A stretch of DNA of 33,374 nucleotides, taken from contig JALOLS010000022.1 of NCBI GenBank assembly GCA_025455865.1, forward strand, positions 1-33,374. Reading direction: 5' to 3'. The notes under the pieces are model-generated. The model saw nothing but the letters and a program-made list of their open reading frames with translations. It ran no database searches and was not told the DNA's origin. Origin of the DNA: Thermoleophilia bacterium (lineage in GTDB: Bacteria > Actinomycetota > Thermoleophilia > Miltoncostaeales > Miltoncostaeaceae). Below are positions 2,353-16,604 of the stretch, one piece after another (positions within the stretch are counted from its first letter, which is position 1; each line of letters opens with the position of its first letter). Position numbers and translations under genes: made by a program.

Positions 2353-3444
2353 TCAGAACCGCTTGACGACCCGGTAGAGCGTGTCCCGCTGGACCGCGCG
2401 GCGGCCGGTGGCCTCGATGGCCCCGACCATGCGCTCGGTGTCCAGGCGGAAGGCGGTGCCCGCGGCGCGGACGACGTTCTCCTCGATCATGATCGAGCCC
2501 ATGTCGTCGCAGCCCACCTCCAGCGCGAGCTGGCCGATCCTCAGGCCCTGGGTGACCCAGGAGCTCTGCAGGTGGGGCACGTTGTCGAGGTACAGGCGGC
2601 TCACGGCGACCATCATCAGGTAGTCGGCCGCGGTGGTGTGCTGGTGGTCGTCGCCGCGCGCGGAGCCACCGCCGGACTGGTAGCTCCAGCAGACGAACGC
2701 CCGGAATCCTCCGGTCTCGTCCTGGGCGTCACGCAGGCGGCGCAGGTGCTCGACCCGGTCCTCGACGGTGTCCACCGTGCCGTACATCATCGTCGCGGTG
2801 GTGGACATGCCGCGCCGGTGGGCGGCCTGCATGACCCCGAGCCACTCGTCCGTGGTGGTCTTGCGGGGGGCGATCACGTCGCGCACGCGGTCGACCAGGA
2901 TCTCGGCGCCGCCGCCCGGGATGGAGTCCAGGCCGGCCGCCTGCAGACGGGTGAGCGTGGTGTCGAGGTCGAGCCTTGAGTACTTGGCGATGTGCAGCAC
3001 CTCGCTGGGCGAGAGCGCGTGCAGGTGGATCGGGTAGCGGGCCTTGATGGAGGCGAACAGGTCCTCGTACCACTCGATCCGGAGGCCGGGGTGGTGGCCG
3101 CCCTGCAGGAGCAGCGCCGTGCCGCCCAGGTCGAGCGTCTCCTCGATCTTGCGGAAGATGACCGACTTGGGGAGGACGTACCCCTCGGGGTCGCGGGGGT
3201 GACGGTAGAAGGCGCAGAAGTCGCAGTCGGTGACGCAGAAGTTCGTGTAGTTGACGTTGCGGTCGACCACGAACGTGACCTCGCCGGCCACGGTCATCCG
3301 CTCGCGCGCCCGCCGGGCCGCCGCGCCCACCCGCACCAGGTCGCGGGAGGCCAGCAGCGCCAGGGCGTCCTCGTCGCTCAGGCGCACGCCGGCGTCGGCG
3401 CGCTCGATGACCTCCAGGTGAGACGGGGGGGAGATGGTCGCCAT
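2353..3444 (-). CDS. mqnC: Cyclic dehypoxanthinyl futalosine synthase (radical SAM, menaquinone)
   Basis: This radical SAM enzyme cyclises dehypoxanthine futalosine in the futalosine route to menaquinone, in the cytoplasm. The 363-aa protein has the cluster motif at residues 70-77 (NFCVTDCDFCAFYR, spacing Cx3Cx2C), preceded by the family-typical VVDRNVNYTN. The Tyr after CAF and the long Gly-rich LLQGGHHP segment fit MqnC better than MqnE. The C-terminal half carries the family pattern with SSWVTQGL, the Gln of GQLALE, and GCDDMGS. Length is normal. It lies 13 bp downstream of mqnA and is the last gene of the operon. The ATG start has a CGGAG ribosome site. A TAACAT hexamer ten bases upstream could also serve as a local promoter. 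Assignment within the MqnC/MqnE family rests on motif memory only. Confidence 0.93.
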   Translation of the reverse strand: MATISPPSHLEVIERADAGVRLSDEDALALLASRDLVRVGAAARRARERMTVAGEVTFVVDRNVNYTNFCVTDCDFCAFYRHPRDPEGYVLPKSVIFRKIEETLDLGGTALLLQGGHHPGLRIEWYEDLFASIKARYPIHLHALSPSEVLHIAKYSRLDLDTTLTRLQAAGLDSIPGGGAEILVDRVRDVIAPRKTTTDEWLGVMQAAHRRGMSTTATMMYGTVDTVEDRVEHLRRLRDAQDETGGFRAFVCWSYQSGGGSARGDDHQHTTAADYLMMVAVSRLYLDNVPHLQSSWVTQGLRIGQLALEVGCDDMGSIMIEENVVRAAGTAFRLDTERMVGAIEATGRRAVQRDTLYRVVKRF

Positions 3445-3457
3445 ACGGACTCCGATG

Positions 3458-4258
3458 TTACGCGGCCAGCGAGGGCAGCCGGTCGAGCTCGCCGGCCGCG
3501 GCGGCCAGCTCCAGGAAGCGGGCGAGGCCGGCGCGCTCGGGCGGGCCGAAGCCGTAGGAGAGGCGCCCGAGGTAGCGGCGCACGTAGTCCTCGGGGAACG
3601 GGAACCGGGCGGCGGCGGCCGCCACCACCGGGTCGGGGTCGCGAAGGTAGGAGCCGCGGGCGGTGGCCAGCATCCGGGCGAGCGCGCGCACGTCGGCCGG
3701 CCGCGCCCGGGCGACCTCCTCGCGGGCGGCCCAGACCGCGAACACCATCGGCAGCCCCGTGCGCTCGCGCCAGCGCTCGCCCAGGTCCGTCGCGTACGGC
3801 GCCCAGCCGGCCCGCAGCGACTCGAGCGCCTCGTCGGCGATCAGGAGCACGGCGTCGACCTCGGCCAGCGCCGCACGGGGGTCGCCGCGCAGCGGCCGGA
3901 ACGGCGGCGTGCCGTCCGGGAGCAGGATGCGCAGGAGGGCCACCGAGCTCGCGCTGGCGGGGGTGACCGCCACGCTCCGCACCCGGTCGAAGGGGACGCG
4001 CGAGAAGACCTGGATCGAGTCGACGGTCCCCTCGCATGAGATGGAGGCGACCGGGATGAGGCGCAGGCGGCCGGCGTTCCGGGCGTAGGCGATGCTCGAC
4101 ATGCACGAGACGTCGAGGCGGTCCTCCAGCAGGGCGTCGTTCAGCGTGGTGGGCAGGCCGTCGGTGAACTCCAGGCCGGGTCCGGCCAGGCGCTCGAGCC
4201 CGTGGTAGACCGGGTACATGTTGAGCGCGCTGATGCGGCCCACGCGGAGCGGCGTCAC
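3458..4258 (-). CDS. mqnA: Chorismate dehydratase / MqnA family
   Basis: MqnA removes water from chorismate to give 3-(1-carboxyvinyloxy)benzoate, the first step of the futalosine pathway. The 266-aa protein has the periplasmic-binding-protein-like fold signatures of the family: RVGRISALNMYP near the N-terminus, GLPTTLNDAL at residues 35-43, the LDVSCMSSIAYA segment at 49-59 that lines the substrate pocket, and VAVTPASASSVALLRILL. MqnD is the homologous alternative, but the 'SSIAYA' segment and the start pattern favour MqnA. It starts with GTG that overlaps the previous stop as GTGA, so it is translationally coupled. Its neighbours mqnC, menG and ubiX support a menaquinone role. mqnB, mqnD, a full mqnE and the prenyltransferase are not in this window. 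Confidence 0.9.
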   Translation of the reverse strand: MTPLRVGRISALNMYPVYHGLERLAGPGLEFTDGLPTTLNDALLEDRLDVSCMSSIAYARNAGRLRLIPVASISCEGTVDSIQVFSRVPFDRVRSVAVTPASASSVALLRILLPDGTPPFRPLRGDPRAALAEVDAVLLIADEALESLRAGWAPYATDLGERWRERTGLPMVFAVWAAREEVARARPADVRALARMLATARGSYLRDPDPVVAAAAARFPFPEDYVRRYLGRLSYGFGPPERAGLARFLELAAAAGELDRLPSLAA

Positions 4259-4797
4259 CGGGCCACCGCCTCCCGGCCGGCCGCCGCGGCGAGCGCCGCC
4301 GGATCGGTGGGGTCGCCGTCCGGGATGACCCAGTCGTCGGCGCCGAAGGCGGTGGCGACCTGGCAGGTGGCGGGCCCGAGCCGGCGCCAGTGCGGGCGCA
4401 CCCGCACCCCGGCCGGCAGGGCGAGCCGGGCGGCGGCGATCACCGTCATGTCCTCCACGCCCCAGGATCCGGGGCGGGCGGACGACCCCTCGCCCGGCAC
4501 CGGGCAGACCGCGCGCAGGAGCCCCGTGCGCCGGGCGAGCGCGGCCAGGGCGTCCAGGCGGTCGGCCACCTGCTGCGGCGTGGTCCCGGCCCCGTAGGCG
4601 ACCGCCGCCTCGCTCGGTCGCCCCGCGGCGTGGGCGGCCTCGTGCTCGGCGACGGGCCGCTCGAGGTCTCCGTCGACGAGCCAGTCCGCCGGCGCGGCGT
4701 CCCGGGTCCAGGTGACCGGGCCGCCGGGCGCGGCGGCGAGGGCGGCGGCGAGGGGGTCGGCGGCGTCCAGGATGGCCAGGATCTCCTGCCGGGTCAT
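4255..4797 (-). CDS. MqnC/MqnE-like protein lacking the radical-SAM cluster segment
   Basis: 180 aa, starting at an ATG that overlaps the prenyl synthase stop (ATGA) and ending in a GTGA overlap with mqnA. By eye, residues 55-155 align with the second half of MqnC/MqnE. An AH..G....A..YG block is followed by a TG-containing loop, then a GVEDMTVIAAARL block, then HWRRLGPATCQVA and FGADDW. MqnC in this operon has matching positions (AHRRGM, MMYG, DETGGF, VAVSRL, SSWVTQGL, GQLALE, GCDD). Residues 25-43 (GGPVTWTRDAAPADWL) resemble the strand just before the iron-sulfur cysteines. The Cx3Cx2C motif and the first half of the barrel are absent. The protein is about half family length, yet its frame is open and its overlaps are precise, so it looks maintained. 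An inactive partner or a futalosine-binding scaffold is inference. Confidence 0.75.
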   Translation of the reverse strand: MTRQEILAILDAADPLAAALAAAPGGPVTWTRDAAPADWLVDGDLERPVAEHEAAHAAGRPSEAAVAYGAGTTPQQVADRLDALAALARRTGLLRAVCPVPGEGSSARPGSWGVEDMTVIAAARLALPAGVRVRPHWRRLGPATCQVATAFGADDWVIPDGDPTDPAALAAAAGREAVAR

Positions 4798-5768
4798 GAG
4801 TAGCGGTCCACCACCCCGTCGGCGATCTCGAGCAGCGCCTCGGCGTCGGCCCCGTCGAGCGGCCCGTCGAGCACCGCCTCGCGGGCCAGGCGCACGTACT
4901 CGAGCGCCCGGTCGCGGGCCAGCGCGACCCCCCGGTGCACCGCGAGCCGGTCGCACAGGTCCTCGACCGCGGCGCCGTCGGTCCCGGCCGCGCGGATGCC
5001 GAGCGCGAGCCCCGGCTCCTCCCGCAGGGCCAGGATCACCGGCAGGGTGACCGTGCCGCCCAGCAGGTCGGTGCCGCGGCGCTTGCCGGTGGCCGCGGGC
5101 TCGCCGGCGATGTCGAGGATGTCATCGAAGATCTGGAAGGCCAGGCCGACGTGCTGCCCGAAGGCGGCCAGGCGTCCGGCCGCCTCCGGGCCGGCGCCGG
5201 AGACCAGGGCGCCGAGCCGGCACGCCACCGAGAACAGCGCGGCGGTCTTGCGCCGGCAGCGGTCGAGGTAGGCCGCCTCGGTGAGGGCGAGGTCGTGGGC
5301 GGCCGCCTGCTGGTCCATCTCCCCCCGGGAGAGGTCGAGCGCGGCGTCGGCCAGGGCCTGCACCGCCTGCGGCGACCGCGACCGGGTGAGCTCGGCGAAG
5401 GCCCGGGCGAACAGGAAGTCGCCCACCCGCACCGCCACCTCGGCGCCCTGCGCCCGCGCGACGGTGGGCCGCCCCCGGCGGGTGGTGGCCCCGTCGATGA
5501 GGTCGTCGTGCACCAGGGTGGCCATGTGGACCAGCTCCACCGCCGCGGCCGCCGCGACCAGGGCGTCGCGGTCCTCCCCCCGGCGGGCCGAGGCGCAGAA
5601 CACCAGCATCGGCCGCACCCGCTTGCCGCCGGCGGACAGGGTGTCGGCCGCCGGGGCGCTGACCGCGGGGGCGTACCCGGCGACCACCTCGGCCAGGCGG
5701 GCCTCGCAGGCGACCATCCACGGCGCGATGGTGCGGACGAAGCCCGGGAGGGCGGGCGCCGTGCTCAT
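4794..5768 (-). CDS. Long-chain polyprenyl diphosphate synthase (trans type)
   Basis: This enzyme adds isopentenyl diphosphate units to make the all-trans side chain, here presumably for menaquinone. The 324-aa protein has both aspartate-rich metal sites, DDLID at residues 88-92 and DDILD at 215-219, plus GGKRVRPML at 47-55, RRGRPT at 97-102 and the GDFLFARAF helix at 116-124. These are the hallmarks of the IspB/HepT/GGPPS superfamily. The start chosen is the ATG that overlaps the menG stop (ATGA); longer in-frame extensions are antisense-like, Arg/Pro-rich sequence. Chain length cannot be read reliably from the sequence. A smaller DDxxD-less homolog lies in the neighbouring heme/ubiD operon (11342-11875) and might be a partner subunit. 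Confidence 0.92.
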   Translation of the reverse strand: MSTAPALPGFVRTIAPWMVACEARLAEVVAGYAPAVSAPAADTLSAGGKRVRPMLVFCASARRGEDRDALVAAAAAVELVHMATLVHDDLIDGATTRRGRPTVARAQGAEVAVRVGDFLFARAFAELTRSRSPQAVQALADAALDLSRGEMDQQAAAHDLALTEAAYLDRCRRKTAALFSVACRLGALVSGAGPEAAGRLAAFGQHVGLAFQIFDDILDIAGEPAATGKRRGTDLLGGTVTLPVILALREEPGLALGIRAAGTDGAAVEDLCDRLAVHRGVALARDRALEYVRLAREAVLDGPLDGADAEALLEIADGVVDRYS

Positions 5769-6484
5769 CCGCGCACCCGGCCGTGGTGGAGCTGCACGAT
5801 GCCGGCCGCGAGCGGCCGCCAGCGCACGTCGTCCATGCCGGCGGCGGCCATCCGGGCGGCGAGCCCCCGCGGGTCGGGGAAGCGCCGCACCGAGGCGGGC
5901 AGGTAGGAGTAGGCGGCGCCGTCGCCCGCCACCAGGCGGCCGAGCAGCGGGACGATGCGGTCGAACCAGAGTCCGTAGAAGGCGCGCAGGCGCGTGGGGG
6001 AGGTGATCTCCAGCACGACCACGCGCCCGCCCGGGCGCACGACCCGGGCCATCTCGGCCAGGCCGGCGTCGAGGTCGTCCCAGTTGCGGGCGCCGAAGGC
6101 CACGGCGGCGGCGTCGAAGGCGGAGTCCTCGAAGGGCAGGGCCAGGGCGTCCCCGGCCCGGAACGTGGCCCGCGCCCCCCGGGCCGCGGCCTTCTCGCGC
6201 GCCCGCTCGAGCATCTCCTCGGCGAAGTCGACGCCCACCACCTCGCCGAGCGGCGTGACCCGGTCGGCGAGCATCAGCGCGAGGTCGCCGGTCCCGGTGC
6301 ACACGTCCAGGGCCCGGCCCCCGGCCGACACGTCGGCCGCGGCGGCGGCGGCCTGGCGCCAGCCCCGGTCCATGCCGGCGGTCATGAGGCGGTTCAGCAG
6401 GTCGTAGCGCGGGGCGATGCGGTCGAACATGGCCCGGACCTCGCCGGCGGGCAGGCGGCCGGCGCGCACCCCCGCGCTCGTCAC
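5765..6484 (-). CDS. menG: Demethylmenaquinone methyltransferase (UbiE/MenG family)
   Basis: SAM-dependent C-methyltransferase for the last step of menaquinone synthesis. The 239-aa protein has the UbiE family opening (RAMFDRIAPRYDLLNRLMTAG, residues 17-37), the SAM-binding motif ALDVCTGTGDLAL at 58-70, GVDFAEEML, and the conserved AFGARNWDDLDAGLAEM and VVLEITSP segments, ending with the GIVQLHHG block typical of the family. GTG at 6484 was chosen because it overlaps the ubiX stop as GTGA and gives normal family length. It is coupled at its other end to the prenyl synthase by ATGA. In this context the substrate is demethylmenaquinone rather than a ubiquinone precursor. Confidence 0.93.
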   Translation of the reverse strand: MTSAGVRAGRLPAGEVRAMFDRIAPRYDLLNRLMTAGMDRGWRQAAAAAADVSAGGRALDVCTGTGDLALMLADRVTPLGEVVGVDFAEEMLERAREKAAARGARATFRAGDALALPFEDSAFDAAAVAFGARNWDDLDAGLAEMARVVRPGGRVVVLEITSPTRLRAFYGLWFDRIVPLLGRLVAGDGAAYSYLPASVRRFPDPRGLAARMAAAGMDDVRWRPLAAGIVQLHHGRVRG

Positions 6485-7104
6485 GTGGCCACCGCCTGGG
6501 GCTCGCCCCAGCGCTTGAGCAGGTCGTGCGGCACCCCGATCTGGTCCAGGGCCTTGCCGACGACGAAGTCGATCATGTCCTCGACCCGCTGGGGCAGCAT
6601 GTAGAGCCCGGGCATGGCCGGGAGCACCACCGCGCCGGCCCGGGTCACCGTGAGCATGTTCTCCAGGTGGATGGCCGAGAGCGGCGTCTCCCGCGGGATC
6701 AGCACCAGGCGCCGGCGTTCCTTGAGCATGACCTCGGCGGCCCGGTGGATGAGGTTCTCGCCGGTGCCGTGGGCGATCTTCGCGAGCGTCGAGGTGGAGC
6801 AGGGGGCGATGAGCGCGGCCGGCGTGAGCGACGACCCCGACGCGAACGATGCGGCGATGTCGCGCGGGTCGAGCACCTCCAGCGTGCCCGCCGGGTCGGC
6901 GAAGCGGTCCACGAACCGCTGCACGACCACGTCGCGCGGCGCGACCGGCCGGGCCCCCTCGCCGAGGATCTCGTGGGAGACGACCTGGCACCCCGCGCCG
7001 CTGACGCACAGGCCCACGTGGCAGCCGGCCCGGGTGAGCGCGCGCAGCGCGTGGCCGCCGTAGGCGGCGCCGCTCGCTCCGCTGACCCCGAGGAAGACCC
7101 TCAT
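6481..7104 (-). CDS. ubiX: Flavin prenyltransferase UbiX
   Basis: UbiX makes prenylated FMN, the cofactor of UbiD-type decarboxylases. The 207-aa protein begins with GVSGASGAAYG (flavin-binding SGASG), carries the central segment APCSTSTLAKIAHGTGENL, the RRRLVLIPRETPLSAIHLENM block that holds the prenyl and phosphate sites, and PAMPGLYMLP near the C-terminus; all are family hallmarks at the expected positions. Its client is probably the UbiD encoded at 9909-11345. It is the first gene of the mqn operon and overlaps menG by four bases (GTGA). Upstream lie a TACCAT hexamer and the hairpin that ends the qcr operon. Confidence 0.95.
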   Translation of the reverse strand: MRVFLGVSGASGAAYGGHALRALTRAGCHVGLCVSGAGCQVVSHEILGEGARPVAPRDVVVQRFVDRFADPAGTLEVLDPRDIAASFASGSSLTPAALIAPCSTSTLAKIAHGTGENLIHRAAEVMLKERRRLVLIPRETPLSAIHLENMLTVTRAGAVVLPAMPGLYMLPQRVEDMIDFVVGKALDQIGVPHDLLKRWGEPQAVAT

Positions 7105-11345: not shown

Positions 11346-11875
11346 CTCAGCGCCTCCGCGATCGCCGGTACCGGGGGCAGGTCGGCGACCACGGCCCACA
11401 TGGGGGCGCCGTCGCCGGCCTGCAGCGCCCGCTTGGCCGCCCGCACCCGCACCTGCAGCTCGCCGCCGCCCTCGCCGGCGATCGCCGCCGCGGTGGCCCG
11501 CCACAGCGCGGGGAGGTCCTCCCGGCGCTCGTCGGCCACCAGCGCGGCCGAGAGGGCCACCAGGTCGGCCAGCGCCTCGATGACCTCGAGGTCGCCGGCG
11601 GCGGCCACGCGGACCAGACCCTGCGCGTAGCAGTAGTCGCCGGCGAGCACGCGCCGGCCGGGGTCGGCCGGCGCGAGGTGGCGGGGGCGGCCGTGGTGGA
11701 GCAGGAAGCCCTCCAGGATCAGGTCCAGGCCGGCGGCCTGCGCCGCGGTGAGCGGCGGGGCGACCAGCCCGGCCAGGAGGGCGGGGCTCGGGGGCTCGAC
11801 CAGGTCGGTGGCGAGGGAGGGCTGCTCGGCCAGCGCGGCGCGGACGGCCCGCCCGGCGTCCTCGGCCACGCTCAA
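11342..11875 (-). CDS. Prenyl-synthase-like small protein lacking DDxxD motifs
   Basis: 177 aa from a TTG that overlaps the hemL stop (TTGA); GTG 11869 is an alternative start. I do not recognise it with certainty. Residues 55-110 align by eye with the trans-prenyl synthase encoded at 4794-5768. LEGFLLHHGRPRHL takes the place of VELVHMATLVHDDLIDG...RRGRPT. RRVLAGDYCYAQGL matches VAVRVGDFLFARAF, and VIEALADLVALSAAL matches AVQALADAALDLSRG. Both metal-binding DDxxD motifs are missing, so catalysis is unlikely. Two-subunit polyprenyl synthases (HepS/HepT, HexA/HexB) have a small non-catalytic subunit, and this could be one. It ends in a GTGA overlap with ubiD, so the stretch is tightly coupled. 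Confidence 0.6.
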   Translation of the reverse strand: MSVAEDAGRAVRAALAEQPSLATDLVEPPSPALLAGLVAPPLTAAQAAGLDLILEGFLLHHGRPRHLAPADPGRRVLAGDYCYAQGLVRVAAAGDLEVIEALADLVALSAALVADERREDLPALWRATAAAIAGEGGGELQVRVRAAKRALQAGDGAPMWAVVADLPPVPAIAEALR

Positions 11876-13122
11876 GCAGCCACCGCGCGGGCGAGCGCCG
11901 CCCCGGTGGCGCGGATGTCGTCCTCGGTGTGGGCCAGGCCGCAGAACCACGCCTCGAACTGCGAGGGCGGCGGGTAGACCCCGTCGGCCAGGAGCGCCCG
12001 GGCCAGGCGCCCGTAGGCCTCGGTGTCCGCGGCGAGCGCCGAGGCGTAGTCGGTGACCGGGGCGTCGGTGAAGAACGGGGTGAGCATCGAGCCGACGCGG
12101 TTGATCGTCACCGGGGCGCCGCTCGCCACGATGGCGTCCTCCAGCATCGCCCCGAGCTCCTCCAGCCGGGCGTAGGTGCCCTCCCGGGCGAGCTCGCACA
12201 GCGTGGCCAGGCCCGCGGTGGTGGCGAGGGGGTTCCCCGAGAGCGTCCCGGCCTGGTAGCAGGGCCCCTCGGGCGCGAGCTCGCGCATGACGTCCGCCCG
12301 CCCCCCGAAGGCCCCGACCGGGAGCCCGCCGCCGATGACCTTGCCCAGGCAGGTGAGGTCGGCGCGGACGCCGAACCGCTCCTGGGCACCGCCGTAGGCC
12401 ACCCGGAACCCGGTGATGACCTCGTCGAGGATGAGCAGCGCGCCGGTGCGGTCGCACGCCGCGCGCAGGCCCTCCAGGTATCCGGGCGCCGGGGGGACGA
12501 CCCCCATGTTCCCGGCCACCGGCTCCACGATGATCGCCGCGGCGCCCTCCAGGGCGGCCTCGGCGGCGGCCAGGTCGTTGTAGGGCACCAGCCGGGTCGC
12601 GGCGGTGGCGCCCGCGGTCACGCCGGGGCTGGTCGGCACCCCGAGGGTGGTGGCGCCGCTGCCGGCCTGCGCGAGCAGGCCGTCGATGGCCCCGTGGTAG
12701 CCGCCCTCGGCCTTCACCACCACCTCGCGGCCGGTCGCCGCGCGGGCCAGCCGCACCGCGCCCATGACCGCCTCCGAGCCCGACGAGGTCATGCGCACCC
12801 GCTCGATGGAGGGGAACGCGGCGCAGACCGCCTCGGCGAAGAGCACCTCGCGCTCGGTCGGCGCCCCGTAGGACGTCCCGCGCCCGAGCGCCTCGCGCAG
12901 GTCCCCGATCACCGCCGGGTGGGCGTGCCCCAGGATGGCCGGGCCCCAGGTGGCGAGGTAGTCGGTGTAGCGGTTGCCGTCGGCGTCCCAGACGAAGGCG
13001 CCCTCGGCGCGGTCGACGAACAGCGGATCGCGCCCGATGGCGCGCATCGCGCGCACGGGGGAGTTCACCCCGCCCACCAGCACGCCCCTCGCCCGCGCGA
13101 AGAGCGCGTCGCTCCTGCTCAG
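11872..13122 (-). CDS. hemL: Glutamate-1-semialdehyde 2,1-aminomutase
   Basis: PLP enzyme that converts glutamate-1-semialdehyde to 5-aminolevulinate, the tetrapyrrole precursor. The 416-aa protein has the family opening (SRSDALFARARGVLVGGVNSPVRA), GHAHPAV, the MTSSGSEAVMGAVRLAR phosphate-binding segment, the PLP aspartate in LDEVITGFR (233-240), the Schiff-base lysine in LGKVIGG (Lys261) and AGTLSGNPLA. The start is odd: the residue that aligns with the family's first Met is a CTG at 13122, overlapping the upstream stop as CTGA, with GGAGAAGGGG just before. An ATG 18 codons further upstream (13176) would add an Arg/Gly-rich extension not usual in the family. It lies between ahbAB and the prenyl-synthase-like gene, with overlaps at both ends. 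Confidence 0.93.
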   Translation of the reverse strand: MSRSDALFARARGVLVGGVNSPVRAMRAIGRDPLFVDRAEGAFVWDADGNRYTDYLATWGPAILGHAHPAVIGDLREALGRGTSYGAPTEREVLFAEAVCAAFPSIERVRMTSSGSEAVMGAVRLARAATGREVVVKAEGGYHGAIDGLLAQAGSGATTLGVPTSPGVTAGATAATRLVPYNDLAAAEAALEGAAAIIVEPVAGNMGVVPPAPGYLEGLRAACDRTGALLILDEVITGFRVAYGGAQERFGVRADLTCLGKVIGGGLPVGAFGGRADVMRELAPEGPCYQAGTLSGNPLATTAGLATLCELAREGTYARLEELGAMLEDAIVASGAPVTINRVGSMLTPFFTDAPVTDYASALAADTEAYGRLARALLADGVYPPPSQFEAWFCGLAHTEDDIRATGAALARAVAA

Positions 13123-14216
13123 CGCCCCTTCTCCCAGACCGGGAGCGGCCGCCCGGCCATGGCCAGGTCCTCCCACGCCCGGTACTCGGGCGAGTAGTAG
13201 ACCAGCCGGACCTTCTTGAACTCATACGTCGAGTAGAGGACCGCGCGGTCGCCCGGGGCGGTGAGCCCGGTCTCCTCGGCGATGGCGGCGATGGTCTCCT
13301 CGCAGGCGTCCTTGGAGCGGGCGTGGACCATCGTGAACAGGTTGTAGGGCCAGTCGGGATAGACCGGCCGCCGGTAGCAGTGGCTCACCGCGCGGTAGGC
13401 GGCCATCTGGGGGCCGAGCTCCTCCACGCGCTCCTCCGGGACCCTCCACACCGCCATGCCGTTGGCCCCGAAGCCGGCCTTGCGGTGGTTCAGCACCGCC
13501 GCGAACCGCCGCATGTAGGACCGCTCAACGAACCGCTCGCCGGCGGCGAGCAGCTCGTCGGTGCCCATCCCGGCGGCCTCGGCCCAGGCGTCGAACGGGG
13601 TCGGCTCGATGGGGAGGTCCTGCTGCAGCACCAGGATGTACCGGCGGTCCTCGTCGGTGGGGAGCACGCCGTCGCCCCGGCGCGGCGGTGGCTTCTGCTC
13701 GGTCTTGGCGCCGGCGTCGGACGCCCCGGTCATGTCGAGCTGCACGTTGATCTTGAACAGCTTGAGGGTGGGCAGCAGCCGCATCGAGACGGCGTCGGTC
13801 TCCCGCGCCAGCACCTCGACGGTCTCCTCCAGGCCCAGCCGGGCCCCGGGCTCCACCGCCACCGTGAACCACAGGTTGAAGTGGTGGGTGCGGCGGTAGT
13901 TGTGGCTCACGCCCGGGTGGCCGCTGACCACCTTCGCGGCGGCGAACAGGCGCTCGTCCGGGTAGCTCGCGGCCACCAGGCTGCTCTCGTAGCCCAGGGC
14001 CCGGGTGTCGAAGATGGCCGACACCTGCCGCACGATCGCCGCGTCCTTCAGGCGCCGGGTCCGCGCGATGACCTCGTCCTCGCCCAGGCCGATCCGCTCG
14101 CCGACCGCCGCGAACGGCCGGCGGACCATCGGGATGCCGGCCTGCAGGGCGTTCAGGAGCACCTGGTCGGTGTCGTCCGGCTTGTGGCGGACGGGCGTCG
14201 GGGCGGCGGTGCTCAA
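13119..14216 (-). CDS. Fused siroheme decarboxylase-like protein (AhbA-AhbB / NirD-NirL type)
   Basis: 365 aa, two AsnC/Lrp-fold halves joined by a charged Lys/Pro linker (about residues 163-185). The first half has the HTH-like start (TDQVLLNALQAGIPMVRRPF) and the family block VSHNYRRTHHFNLWFTV (103-119). The second half has LNHRKAGFGANGMAVWRVPE (242-261), VSHCYRR...WPYNLFTMVH (277-298) and LYSTYEFKKVRLVYY (327-341). These blocks are diagnostic for AhbA/AhbB and NirDLGH, which decarboxylate siroheme on the way to heme b or heme d1. These families are often misnamed as Lrp regulators. Placed between hemB and hemL it probably serves heme synthesis. TTG at 14216 was chosen from the TTGA overlap with the hemB stop. 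AhbC, AhbD and Nir partners are not in the window. Confidence 0.85.
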   Translation of the reverse strand: MSTAAPTPVRHKPDDTDQVLLNALQAGIPMVRRPFAAVGERIGLGEDEVIARTRRLKDAAIVRQVSAIFDTRALGYESSLVAASYPDERLFAAAKVVSGHPGVSHNYRRTHHFNLWFTVAVEPGARLGLEETVEVLARETDAVSMRLLPTLKLFKINVQLDMTGASDAGAKTEQKPPPRRGDGVLPTDEDRRYILVLQQDLPIEPTPFDAWAEAAGMGTDELLAAGERFVERSYMRRFAAVLNHRKAGFGANGMAVWRVPEERVEELGPQMAAYRAVSHCYRRPVYPDWPYNLFTMVHARSKDACEETIAAIAEETGLTAPGDRAVLYSTYEFKKVRLVYYSPEYRAWEDLAMAGRPLPVWEKGR

Positions 14217-15232
14217 CGGAGGTCCTCCTGGATCCACCGGGCGGCGTCGGTGGCGTAGTAGGTGATGAGGTTGTCGGCGCCGGCCCGGGCGATGGCGGTC
14301 AGCGTCTCCAGGGCGGCCTGACGCTCGTCCAGCCAGCCCCGCTCGGCCGCGGCCTTGATCATGCTGTACTCGCCGCTGGTGTGGTACGCGGCGAGCGGCA
14401 GGTCGGTGTGCTCGCGCACCCGGCGCACGACGTCGAGGTAGGTGGCCGCGGGCTTGACCATCACCATGTCGGCCCCCTCGGCCACGTCGGCGGCCACCTC
14501 GCGCACCGCCTCGCGGCCGTTGGCCGGGTCCATCTGGTAGCCCTTGCGGTCGCCCATGCCCGGCGCCGAGCCCGCCGCCTCGCGGAACGGGCCGTAGAAC
14601 GCCGACGCGTACTTGGCGGCGTAGCTCATGACCGCCACCGTCTCGTGCCCCTCCGCGTCGAGGGCGTCGCGGATGGCGCCCACCCGGCCGTCCATCATGT
14701 CGCTGGGGGCGACGACGTCGGCGCCCGCCTCGGCGTGGCTCACCGCCGTGCGGCTGATGAGCTCCAGCGAGCGGTCGTTGTGGACGTGCCCGTCGACCAG
14801 CACCCCGCAGTGGCCGTGGTCGGTGTAGGCGCACAGGCACACGTCGGTGATGACGACCAGGTCGGGGAGGGCGTCCTTGAGCGCCGCGACGGCGGCCTGC
14901 ACCACGCCGCCGGGCTCGTGCGCGCCGCTCGCCTCGGGGTCCTTGTGGTCGGGCACGCCGAAGAGGAGCACGGCCGGGACCCCCAGCCGCAGGGCCTCGC
15001 GCGCCGTGCGCACGATGCCGTCGCGCGACATGCGGGCCACGCCGGGAAGCGCCTGGACGGGCTGGTGCACGCCCTCGCCCGGCACCGCGAAGAGCGGCAG
15101 GATGAGCTGGTCGGGCGAGAGGCGCGTCTCGCGCACCATCCGCCGCACCCCCGCGGTGGTGCGCAGGCGCCGGTGGCGCACCCGGGGGAAGCCGCCCGTG
15201 GCGGCCGCGGAGTGGGCGGCGGGCAGGGTCAC
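14213..15232 (-). CDS. hemB: Delta-aminolevulinate dehydratase (porphobilinogen synthase), zinc-cysteine type
   Basis: Condenses two 5-aminolevulinate molecules to porphobilinogen. 339 aa from the GTG at 15232, typical length. The metal site TDVCLCAYTDHGHCG (129-143) has three cysteines (132, 134, 142), marking the zinc-dependent class. Active-site lysines are in MSYAAKYASAFYGPFR (Lys207) and MVKPAATYLD (Lys260, Schiff base). DRKGYQMDP and YHTSGEYSMIKAA are also as in the family. It is the first gene of a five-gene operon hemB-ahbAB-hemL-(prenyl-synthase-like)-ubiD. A TACACT hexamer eight bases before the GTG suggests a leaderless transcript. Confidence 0.95.
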   Translation of the reverse strand: MTLPAAHSAAATGGFPRVRHRRLRTTAGVRRMVRETRLSPDQLILPLFAVPGEGVHQPVQALPGVARMSRDGIVRTAREALRLGVPAVLLFGVPDHKDPEASGAHEPGGVVQAAVAALKDALPDLVVITDVCLCAYTDHGHCGVLVDGHVHNDRSLELISRTAVSHAEAGADVVAPSDMMDGRVGAIRDALDAEGHETVAVMSYAAKYASAFYGPFREAAGSAPGMGDRKGYQMDPANGREAVREVAADVAEGADMVMVKPAATYLDVVRRVREHTDLPLAAYHTSGEYSMIKAAAERGWLDERQAALETLTAIARAGADNLITYYATDAARWIQEDLR

Positions 15233-15240
15233 GGACGGCG

Positions 15241-15246
15241 AGTGTA
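15241..15246 (-). promoter_or_regulatory. Candidate -10 hexamer TACACT for the hemB operon
   Basis: The minus strand reads TACACT with eight bases to the hemB GTG, the spacing expected for a leaderless start. The 75-bp gap 15233-15307 is shared with the divergent plus-strand gene. Confidence 0.5.
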
Positions 15247-15294
15247 CCGCCGCCGGGTCCGGGGGCGGGGGTGGACGGCGGGCGCCCGGGCCGC

Positions 15295-15300
15295 GAGGAT
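15295..15300 (+). promoter_or_regulatory. Possible -10 hexamer GAGGAT upstream of the 15308 gene
   Basis: GAGGAT keeps the A at position 2 and T at position 6 of the -10 and sits seven bases before GTG 15308. No ribosome site is visible, so a leaderless message is plausible. The match is weak. Confidence 0.25.
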
Positions 15301-15307
15301 CGCGTCC

Positions 15308-15886
15308 GTGCCCCCGTCCGCGCCCCGCCACGCGATCGACCTGATCTGGCTCCCGCTCGGGGCCGGCGGGTGGCTGGTGGCCGCCAACGGGCGGGCGATG
15401 GAGGCCGCGGCCGCGCGCCTGCAGCGCCGCCGGCCGCAGCCCCTGTTCCACGCCGGCCTCGAGGTCTGGGCCGACGGGGAGCGGTGGGTGATCGAGCAGA
15501 CCCCGGTGCCCCCCGGGCCGCCCGCCCGCCGGGGCGTCGTCGGCCAGGGGCCGGTGGGGGCTCGCTGCCTCGGGCGCCTGCGGGTCTTCCGGTATGAGGT
15601 CCGCCGATGGCGCGGCGGGGAGATCCCCGACCTCGCCTGGGCGGCCGAGCGCCGGCGGGTCTCCACCGACCCGGCGGCCGCGGCCCGCCTGCTCGGCCTG
15701 GCCCCGCAGGTTCCGCTCGGGGTGTGGGGCCGGCGGATGCCCGGGACCGACGAGATGTGGAACTCCAACGCCATCGTCGCCTGGCTCCTCGCCCGCACCG
15801 GCCTGCCGGCGGCCGGCCTCCACCCGCCCGGCGGCGGCCGGGCCCCGGGCTGGCGGGCCGGCCTGGTGGTGGCGGAGCGCGGCTAG
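15308..15886 (+). CDS. Unknown protein with WNSN motif
   Basis: 192 aa from GTG. I do not recognise the family. It is hydrophilic overall, with no signal peptide or clear membrane helix. Visible features are FHAGLEVWADGERWVIEQTP (residues 47-66), a Pro/Gly loop, an RVFRYEVRRWRGGEIPD block (92-108), and near the C-terminus VWGRRMPGTDEMWNSNAIVAWLLARTGL (139-166). An early His in an 'HAGLEV' strand and a later N-x-N before a 'WLLxxxGL' helix recall the circularly permuted papain-like/NlpC-LRAT layout, where that later position carries NCN; here a Ser stands in place of the Cys. This resemblance is speculative. The gene is divergent from hemB, and its stop overlaps the candidate promoter of the next gene. 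Confidence 0.75.
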   Translation: MPPSAPRHAIDLIWLPLGAGGWLVAANGRAMEAAAARLQRRRPQPLFHAGLEVWADGERWVIEQTPVPPGPPARRGVVGQGPVGARCLGRLRVFRYEVRRWRGGEIPDLAWAAERRRVSTDPAAAARLLGLAPQVPLGVWGRRMPGTDEMWNSNAIVAWLLARTGLPAAGLHPPGGGRAPGWRAGLVVAERG

Positions 15887-15889
15887 GCT
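15884..15889 (+). promoter_or_regulatory. Candidate -10 hexamer TAGGCT for the SDR gene
   Basis: TAGGCT overlaps the TAG stop of the preceding gene and lies seven bases before ATG 15897. No Shine-Dalgarno is present. This matches the leaderless arrangement known from Actinobacteria. Confidence 0.45.
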
Positions 15890-15896
15890 CCCCGGG

Positions 15897-16604
15897 ATGC
15901 CGCCCCGCCCCGTCGCCCTGGTCGTCGGCGCCCGCAACGTCGGGCGCGCCGTGGTGGCCGACCGCCTCGCCGCGGGCTGGAAGGTGCTGGCCGTCGCGCG
16001 CACCCGCTCGACGCTCACCGAGCTGCGGCGTGCGTGCCCGGGGGTGGGGACGATGGAGGCCGACGCCGCCGACCCCGCGCTCATGGCCGCGGCCATCGCG
16101 CGCTGCCGCATGGAGATGGGCGGCCTGGACCTGGTGGTGAACGCGATCACCGACCCGCCCCGCGACCAGCCGTTCGGCGGCGGGGAGATCGCCGGCGCGC
16201 CGCCCGGGCGGCTGGAGGAGTGGGTGCGGCCCTACCTCCCGGCGGCCTGGGAGGTGCTCCGGCAGGCCGGCGGGGCCATGAAGCAGCAGGGGAGCGGAAC
16301 GATCGTCCAGGTCGTGGGGCCCTCGGGCCGCCGGCCGGGCGCGGGCCGCGGGCCGTTCGGGGTGGCCCAGATGGGCGCCCGGGCGCTCACCACGGTGCTC
16401 GCGCAGGAGCTCCGGCCCGAGGGGGTCCACGTGGCCCTGGTGGTGGCCGACGGCTTCATCCGCACCGATCGCAACCCCGAGGGCGACATCCGGCCCGAGG
16501 ACGTCGCATCGGCCATCGGCTACCTGGCCGGGCAGGCCCCCTCGGCGTGGACCCACGACCTGGTCTTGACCCCGCGGGCCGGGGACTGGATCCCGACCCC
16601 GTAG
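15897..16604 (+). CDS. SDR-fold protein with a substituted catalytic pair
   Basis: 235 aa Rossmann-fold protein of the short-chain dehydrogenase/reductase family. The start VALVVGARNVGRAVVADRLAAG (6-27) is a variant of the TGxxxGIG cofactor loop, and LDLVVNAI (78-84) corresponds to the NNAG strand. The segment GTIVQVVGPSG (134-144) is at the catalytic serine strand. The next block, GPFGVAQMGARALTTVLAQEL, aligns with YxxxK, but Tyr is Phe154 and Lys is Gln158. The usual chemistry is therefore doubtful, and it may bind NAD(P) or another ligand as a sensor or scaffold. Target and pathway are unknown. ATG 15897 was chosen from the adjacent TAGGCT. Confidence 0.8.
   Translation: MPPRPVALVVGARNVGRAVVADRLAAGWKVLAVARTRSTLTELRRACPGVGTMEADAADPALMAAAIARCRMEMGGLDLVVNAITDPPRDQPFGGGEIAGAPPGRLEEWVRPYLPAAWEVLRQAGGAMKQQGSGTIVQVVGPSGRRPGAGRGPFGVAQMGARALTTVLAQELRPEGVHVALVVADGFIRTDRNPEGDIRPEDVASAIGYLAGQAPSAWTHDLVLTPRAGDWIPTP

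Follow-up and report, generated by a model that had tools for sequence, protein, structure and literature searches.

A half-length relative of MqnE, probably kept for a non-radical role, in the menaquinone operon of the Miltoncostaeaceae

Gene X and its place in the operon

The menaquinone operon of a Thermoleophilia bacterium of the family Miltoncostaeaceae encodes, between two ordinary biosynthetic genes, a 180-aa protein that resembles one half of the radical SAM enzyme MqnE. The locus lies on contig JALOLS010000022.1, of which the whole stretch analysed (33,374 nucleotides) is referred to here as the window, and it raises the question of whether such a half-enzyme is a decaying gene, a working part of the futalosine pathway or something new. 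The open reading frame, hereafter gene X, occupies window positions 4797-4255 on the minus strand, with its ATG at 4797 and its TGA at 4257-4255. The gene start overlaps the stop codon of a polyprenyl diphosphate synthase gene (4794-5768, minus strand; PF00348, E=2.7e-63) in an ATGA tetranucleotide (4794-4797, minus strand), and its stop overlaps the GTG start of mqnA, encoding chorismate dehydratase (3458-4258, minus strand; PF02621, E=2.3e-57), in a GTGA (4255-4258, minus strand). The frame and both overlaps had been described in an earlier, sequence-only reading of the locus and are borne out by the sequence; across related loci the overlap with the prenyl synthase gene is found in 25 of 30 and that with mqnA in all 30.

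The neighbours of gene X were identified with Pfam and NCBIfam profiles as mqnA, the prenyl synthase gene and mqnC, the last encoding a full-length cyclic dehypoxanthinyl futalosine synthase complete with its radical SAM domain (2353-3444, minus strand; TIGR03699, 460.9 bits, above the cut-off). Upstream of the prenyl synthase gene are a ubiE-like menaquinone methyltransferase gene (5765-6484, minus strand, start inferred) and a ubiX-like prenyltransferase gene (6481-7104, minus strand), with a ubiD-like gene at a greater distance; these were assigned from the sequence, and their order matches that of related loci. Haem and quinone genes share a common cluster in the window: a gene with siroheme-decarboxylase-like (NirDL/AhbAB) domains (13119-16556) and a glutamate-semialdehyde-aminotransferase-like gene (11872-13176) adjoin the menaquinone and cytochrome bc genes.

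Homology to MqnE and an internal deletion

Profile searches relate gene X to the second half of MqnE and MqnC far beyond chance, as the sequence-only reading had proposed from alignment by eye. Matches were obtained to the CofH-family model TIGR00423 (E=5.7e-8, profile positions 151-262 of 310), to the MqnE model TIGR03700 (E=3.7e-7, profile positions 193-303 only) and to the NCBIfam MqnC model (E=5.9e-6). By score gene X belongs neither to MqnE nor to CofH_C, reaching 29.4 bits against a curated cut-off of 434.55 bits for TIGR03700 and 11.5 bits against a gathering score of 27 bits for CofH_C (PF19288). MqnE structure 6XI9 was the sole PDB match by sequence (E=0.0024). When a profile of 20 gene X sequences was aligned by hhalign with a profile of MqnE, MqnC and CofH, the probability was 98.7% and E=2.1e-16; in this and the merged alignment, residues 45-157 (4327-4665, minus strand) match the MqnE/MqnC segment that opens with the W..H..AH..G helix and closes with the FGxDD motif.

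The CxxxCxxC motif, already noted as missing, is absent from the gene X sequence, and the half of MqnE that holds the cluster and binds SAM appears as a gap in the alignment. Residues 3-31 (4705-4791, minus strand) correspond, by hhalign and the AlphaFold model, to the N-terminal helices and first strand that precede the CxxxCxxC loop in MqnC/MqnE. The 33 N-terminal columns scored 23.8 against the equivalent place in MqnC (best of 30 column shuffles, 18.9) and 17.8 against MqnE (best of 30, 14.0). Since this N-terminal alignment outscores every one of the 30 column shuffles, an internal deletion is supported, one that took out the cluster loop together with the strands that follow it. Of the N-terminal resemblance to MqnC from which such a deletion had been suggested, residues 3-31 hold up, and the likening of the tail end of that stretch, APADW, to NYTN does not. 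The merged alignment also reveals a second deletion of ~25 residues just before a short C-terminal tail (residues 170-180; 4258-4290, minus strand) that resembles the ..AGRxPVER.. segment of MqnE.

Predicted fold

AlphaFold, given gene X with 29 family sequences, returned a model with pLDDT 95.1 and pTM 0.91, in which the N-terminus forms two helices and a strand (H3-12, H15-22, E28-31). A structure search had been chosen beforehand as the point at which the proposed relation could fail; with this model, the best Foldseek matches in the PDB were the MqnE crystal structures 6XI9 and 6XIG (E about 1e-7, TMq 0.61-0.64), followed by HydE and BioB, and gene X is accordingly predicted to keep the fold of the MqnE C-terminal half. 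By comparison with BioB, gene X presumably retains strands 5-8 along with strand 1, strands that sit next to one another in the closed barrel. Conserved residues lie mostly at strand ends, on what is the active-site side of the full parent barrels. In genus g10 the protein is shorter still (153-154 aa, L032-L041) and has lost the W..H..AH..G helix as well; the 153-aa form was modelled at pLDDT 93.2, and its best match was again MqnE, more weakly (E 0.001). No match at E 0.001 was found in a viral structure library, where the closest entry was a Pandoravirus protein annotated as aminodeoxyfutalosine synthase (BFVD A0A2U7UFW1, E 0.0028).

Distribution and selection

Homologues between mqnA and the prenyl synthase gene, which the sequence-only reading had suggested looking for, were found at the same place in 38 of the 40 Miltoncostaeaceae genomes that carry mqnA (40 of 42 in the family). 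In all 34 named loci gene X adjoins mqnA, and in nearly all the prenyl synthase gene lies on its other side. The two mqnA-bearing genomes that lack it (G007 and G016) both belong to genus g8, in which the prenyl synthase gene runs directly into mqnA: gene X is cleanly gone, and mqnA, mqnC and MqnE are kept. Since g8 is nested among gene X-bearing genera in a tree of MqnA, MqnC and MqnE, its absence there is a loss, and because one genus has lost it so cleanly, gene X is not strictly essential; the futalosine pathway genes can persist without it.

Outside the family, a search of 246 genomes of the phylum with the gene X profile gave no short MqnE-derived frame other than one of 174 aa in G133, which is sited near a contig end and was not accepted as a truncated MqnE; all other matches lay in frames of at least 286 aa. 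Two further candidates (L086 and L087) proved to be full length with CxxxCxxC. Searching the genome contigs with the single gene X protein as query gave no matches, and none of the papers found on MqnE, MqnA, the futalosine pathway or Miltoncostaea describes gene X in its title or listed abstract. Miltoncostaeaceae are described as soil and water bacteria. Records titled Bifidobacterium breve and Acidobacteria (L069, L080, L077) bear Miltoncostaeaceae-type operons with gene X, and these MAG titles look wrong.

Within genera, median pN/pS over 61 pairs was 0.41 for gene X, 0.33 for mqnA and 0.29 for the prenyl synthase gene. At about 50-60% overall identity, 21 residues are invariant across the gene X family, and no listed copy has an internal stop. 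These comparisons indicate purifying selection across one family, with dN/dS well below 1. Conservation and pN/pS rule out decay, in agreement with the earlier view that the gene was not degenerating, which also finds support in the mqnA overlap and the presence of the gene throughout most of the family.

The residues under constraint are partly those of MqnE and partly new. Retained from MqnE are A55, H56, G59, Y68, G69, G113, D116, R124, W137, G141, Q146, F151 and G152, with AH..G, YG, FG and, in relatives, PGSxGVEDL as shared motifs. Residues fixed in MqnE are changed at H70, E72, R85, D128, N129, G158 and T159 (gene X numbering), and further MqnE-conserved positions are replaced at 65, 80 and 134, so that the conserved set of the MqnE C-terminal half is no longer present as a set. 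Gene X has invariants of its own at R80, W112, P128, R134, P135, W156 and P159, some of them invariant only in the 180-aa form. With these MqnE-fixed residues changed, the substrate pocket has not been preserved in its MqnE form. With most MqnE-conserved residues lost and new invariants gained, gene X would therefore be a repurposed protein and not a plain mimic of MqnE, and the turnover points to a new role instead of a copy of the MqnE pocket.

A proposed origin from the operonic mqnE

Two other families of the class, f2 and f4, carry a full-length mqnE between ubiE or the prenyl synthase gene and mqnA, that is, in the slot of gene X, and mqnE and mqnC paired about 2 kb apart are the usual arrangement in class Thermoleophilia. 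The intact MqnE of the Miltoncostaeaceae is encoded outside the menaquinone operon (G000:C152:16033-17082; also L010, and L046 7010-8104), in the window's own genome beside unrelated genes. This enzyme resembles MqnE more closely than MqnC; its intact copies mostly score 390-418 bits, below the TIGR03700 cut-off, which the majority of other families possessing a full mqnE exceed. In our tree it forms a clade of its own outside the MqnE of the class, and forcing the two together gave a borderline result (AU p 0.0545). The family's intact MqnE may, on this tree, have been acquired from another lineage. In family f10, one locus (L211, G145) has three CofH-family genes within 7 kb, one of which matches both MqnC and MqnE weakly and is a possible further paralogue.

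Outside the family, the gene X profile finds operonic MqnE best (71.8 bits), against 40-53 bits for the family's own MqnE. A tree of the short shared region placed gene X among f4-type MqnE. Over so short a region, groupings with MqnC or with the family's MqnE were not rejected (AU p 0.50 and 0.45), and phylogeny alone did not place gene X; with these alternatives surviving, its descent from the operonic mqnE is therefore argued mainly from position. Most likely, gene X is what became of the former operonic mqnE, which shrank once a second MqnE had taken its place and was then kept.

Function and alternative explanations

Three other accounts of gene X have to be weighed against repurposing. 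A redundant operonic mqnE might be whittled away slowly and tolerated mainly for translational coupling between the prenyl synthase gene and mqnA. The series of forms looks like stepwise shortening, from a full mqnE in other families through ~180 aa in most genera and 153 aa in g10 to none in g8, and both the constant gene X-mqnA overlap and a pN/pS slightly above that of the neighbours fit such a course. A tolerated remnant should nevertheless hardly retain its invariant residues, its low pN/pS and its uninterrupted frames, nor be confidently folded in prediction at 153 aa, and the direct junction restored in g8 indicates that coupling does not need gene X; we consider this account quite improbable. 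A similarly slim chance is given to gene X as half of a split or mixed enzyme that docks on MqnE or MqnC, for instance by replacing or adjoining the homologous half-barrel, and alters activity or stability in the manner of an activating pseudoenzyme subunit. One barrel half with its former interface exposed, encoded beside mqnA and mqnC in a family whose intact MqnE is unusually divergent (402 bits against 434.55), would suit docking, but the genomes examined encode full-length MqnE and MqnC, barring pieces at contig edges, and g8 has a similarly divergent MqnE without gene X.

It is also conceivable, if unlikely, that gene X now encodes a novel small enzyme or regulator that has a pocket of its own and no remaining tie to the MqnE substrate. 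In favour of this, the private invariants R80, W112, R134, W156 and P159 stand beside the retained D116 and W137, and much of the MqnE set is replaced; however, gene X stays in the menaquinone operon in every locus seen, and no missing pathway step fits its distribution. A role for gene X as substitute for the futalosine hydrolase MqnB was discarded, as canonical MqnB is missing in the family with or without gene X: G005 has gene X and a sub-threshold MqnB match, and g8 has neither. No MqnB above the TIGR03664 cut-off was found in Miltoncostaeaceae genomes or among the family f6 genomes listed, and those listed above it in the class are all in family f4. Another nucleosidase probably performs the MqnB step in the Miltoncostaeaceae.

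We give about an even chance to the reading that the mqnE first present in the operon survives, repurposed, as gene X, likely an accessory that binds a ligand or a partner. On this view aminofutalosine synthesis would have passed to a second, divergent MqnE with its gene elsewhere; the operonic copy would then have been stripped of strands 2-4 and of the cluster loop, and the shrunken copy would have been retained as a small non-radical protein. Binding of a ligand or partner is suggested by where the invariant residues lie, mostly on the parent barrel's active-site side; co-translation with mqnA and the restriction of gene X to the menaquinone operon point to a place in the MqnA-MqnE section of the pathway. 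Gene X is most likely, we infer, a non-catalytic accessory of that section. Beside the co-translated MqnA and the relocated MqnE it could, tentatively, bind an intermediate of the pathway (the product of MqnA, for example) or stabilise one of the enzymes. Of the roles suggested earlier (inactive partner, chaperone or substrate carrier), a simple substrate carrier or an essential partner is argued against by the replacement of most MqnE-conserved residues and the clean loss in g8.

Comparison with known systems and significance

MqnE is the closest known protein, sharing with gene X the fold of the common half and, in related families, the operon slot; gene X differs in lacking the CxxxCxxC loop and about three barrel strands and in having most MqnE-fixed residues replaced. 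MqnC and CofH are likewise homologous over the C-terminal half, and the gene X N-terminus aligns somewhat better with MqnC, whereas gene X has no radical SAM domain and forms its own clade. As a homologue of a pathway enzyme that has lost the catalytic site and is kept by selection, gene X is a candidate pseudoenzyme of the futalosine pathway. In the trypanosome AdoMet decarboxylase prozyme, a pseudoenzyme subunit was derived from a duplicated enzyme. The prozyme resembles gene X as a selection-kept paralogue of an active enzyme of the same pathway with its catalytic site lost, but in gene X half of the fold is gone as well, and gene X is known from sequence and a predicted fold.

A further possibility, less probable than the main reading, is that strands 5-8 with strand 1 of a radical SAM barrel now form a domain in their own right, with a new pocket of conserved residues and a novel function in menaquinone synthesis that needs no radical chemistry, the parent enzyme having been replaced by a divergent MqnE elsewhere. 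Gene X is a natural case of a radical SAM barrel minus its cluster half, the remainder of which has stayed conserved over the lifetime of an entire bacterial family. It is probably the leftover half of a radical enzyme, under selection, with a new non-radical job in the menaquinone (vitamin K2) pathway. If its function is found, gene X would demonstrate that a radical SAM barrel's substrate half can exist independently, and it may bring to light a new accessory factor for menaquinone synthesis by the futalosine route.
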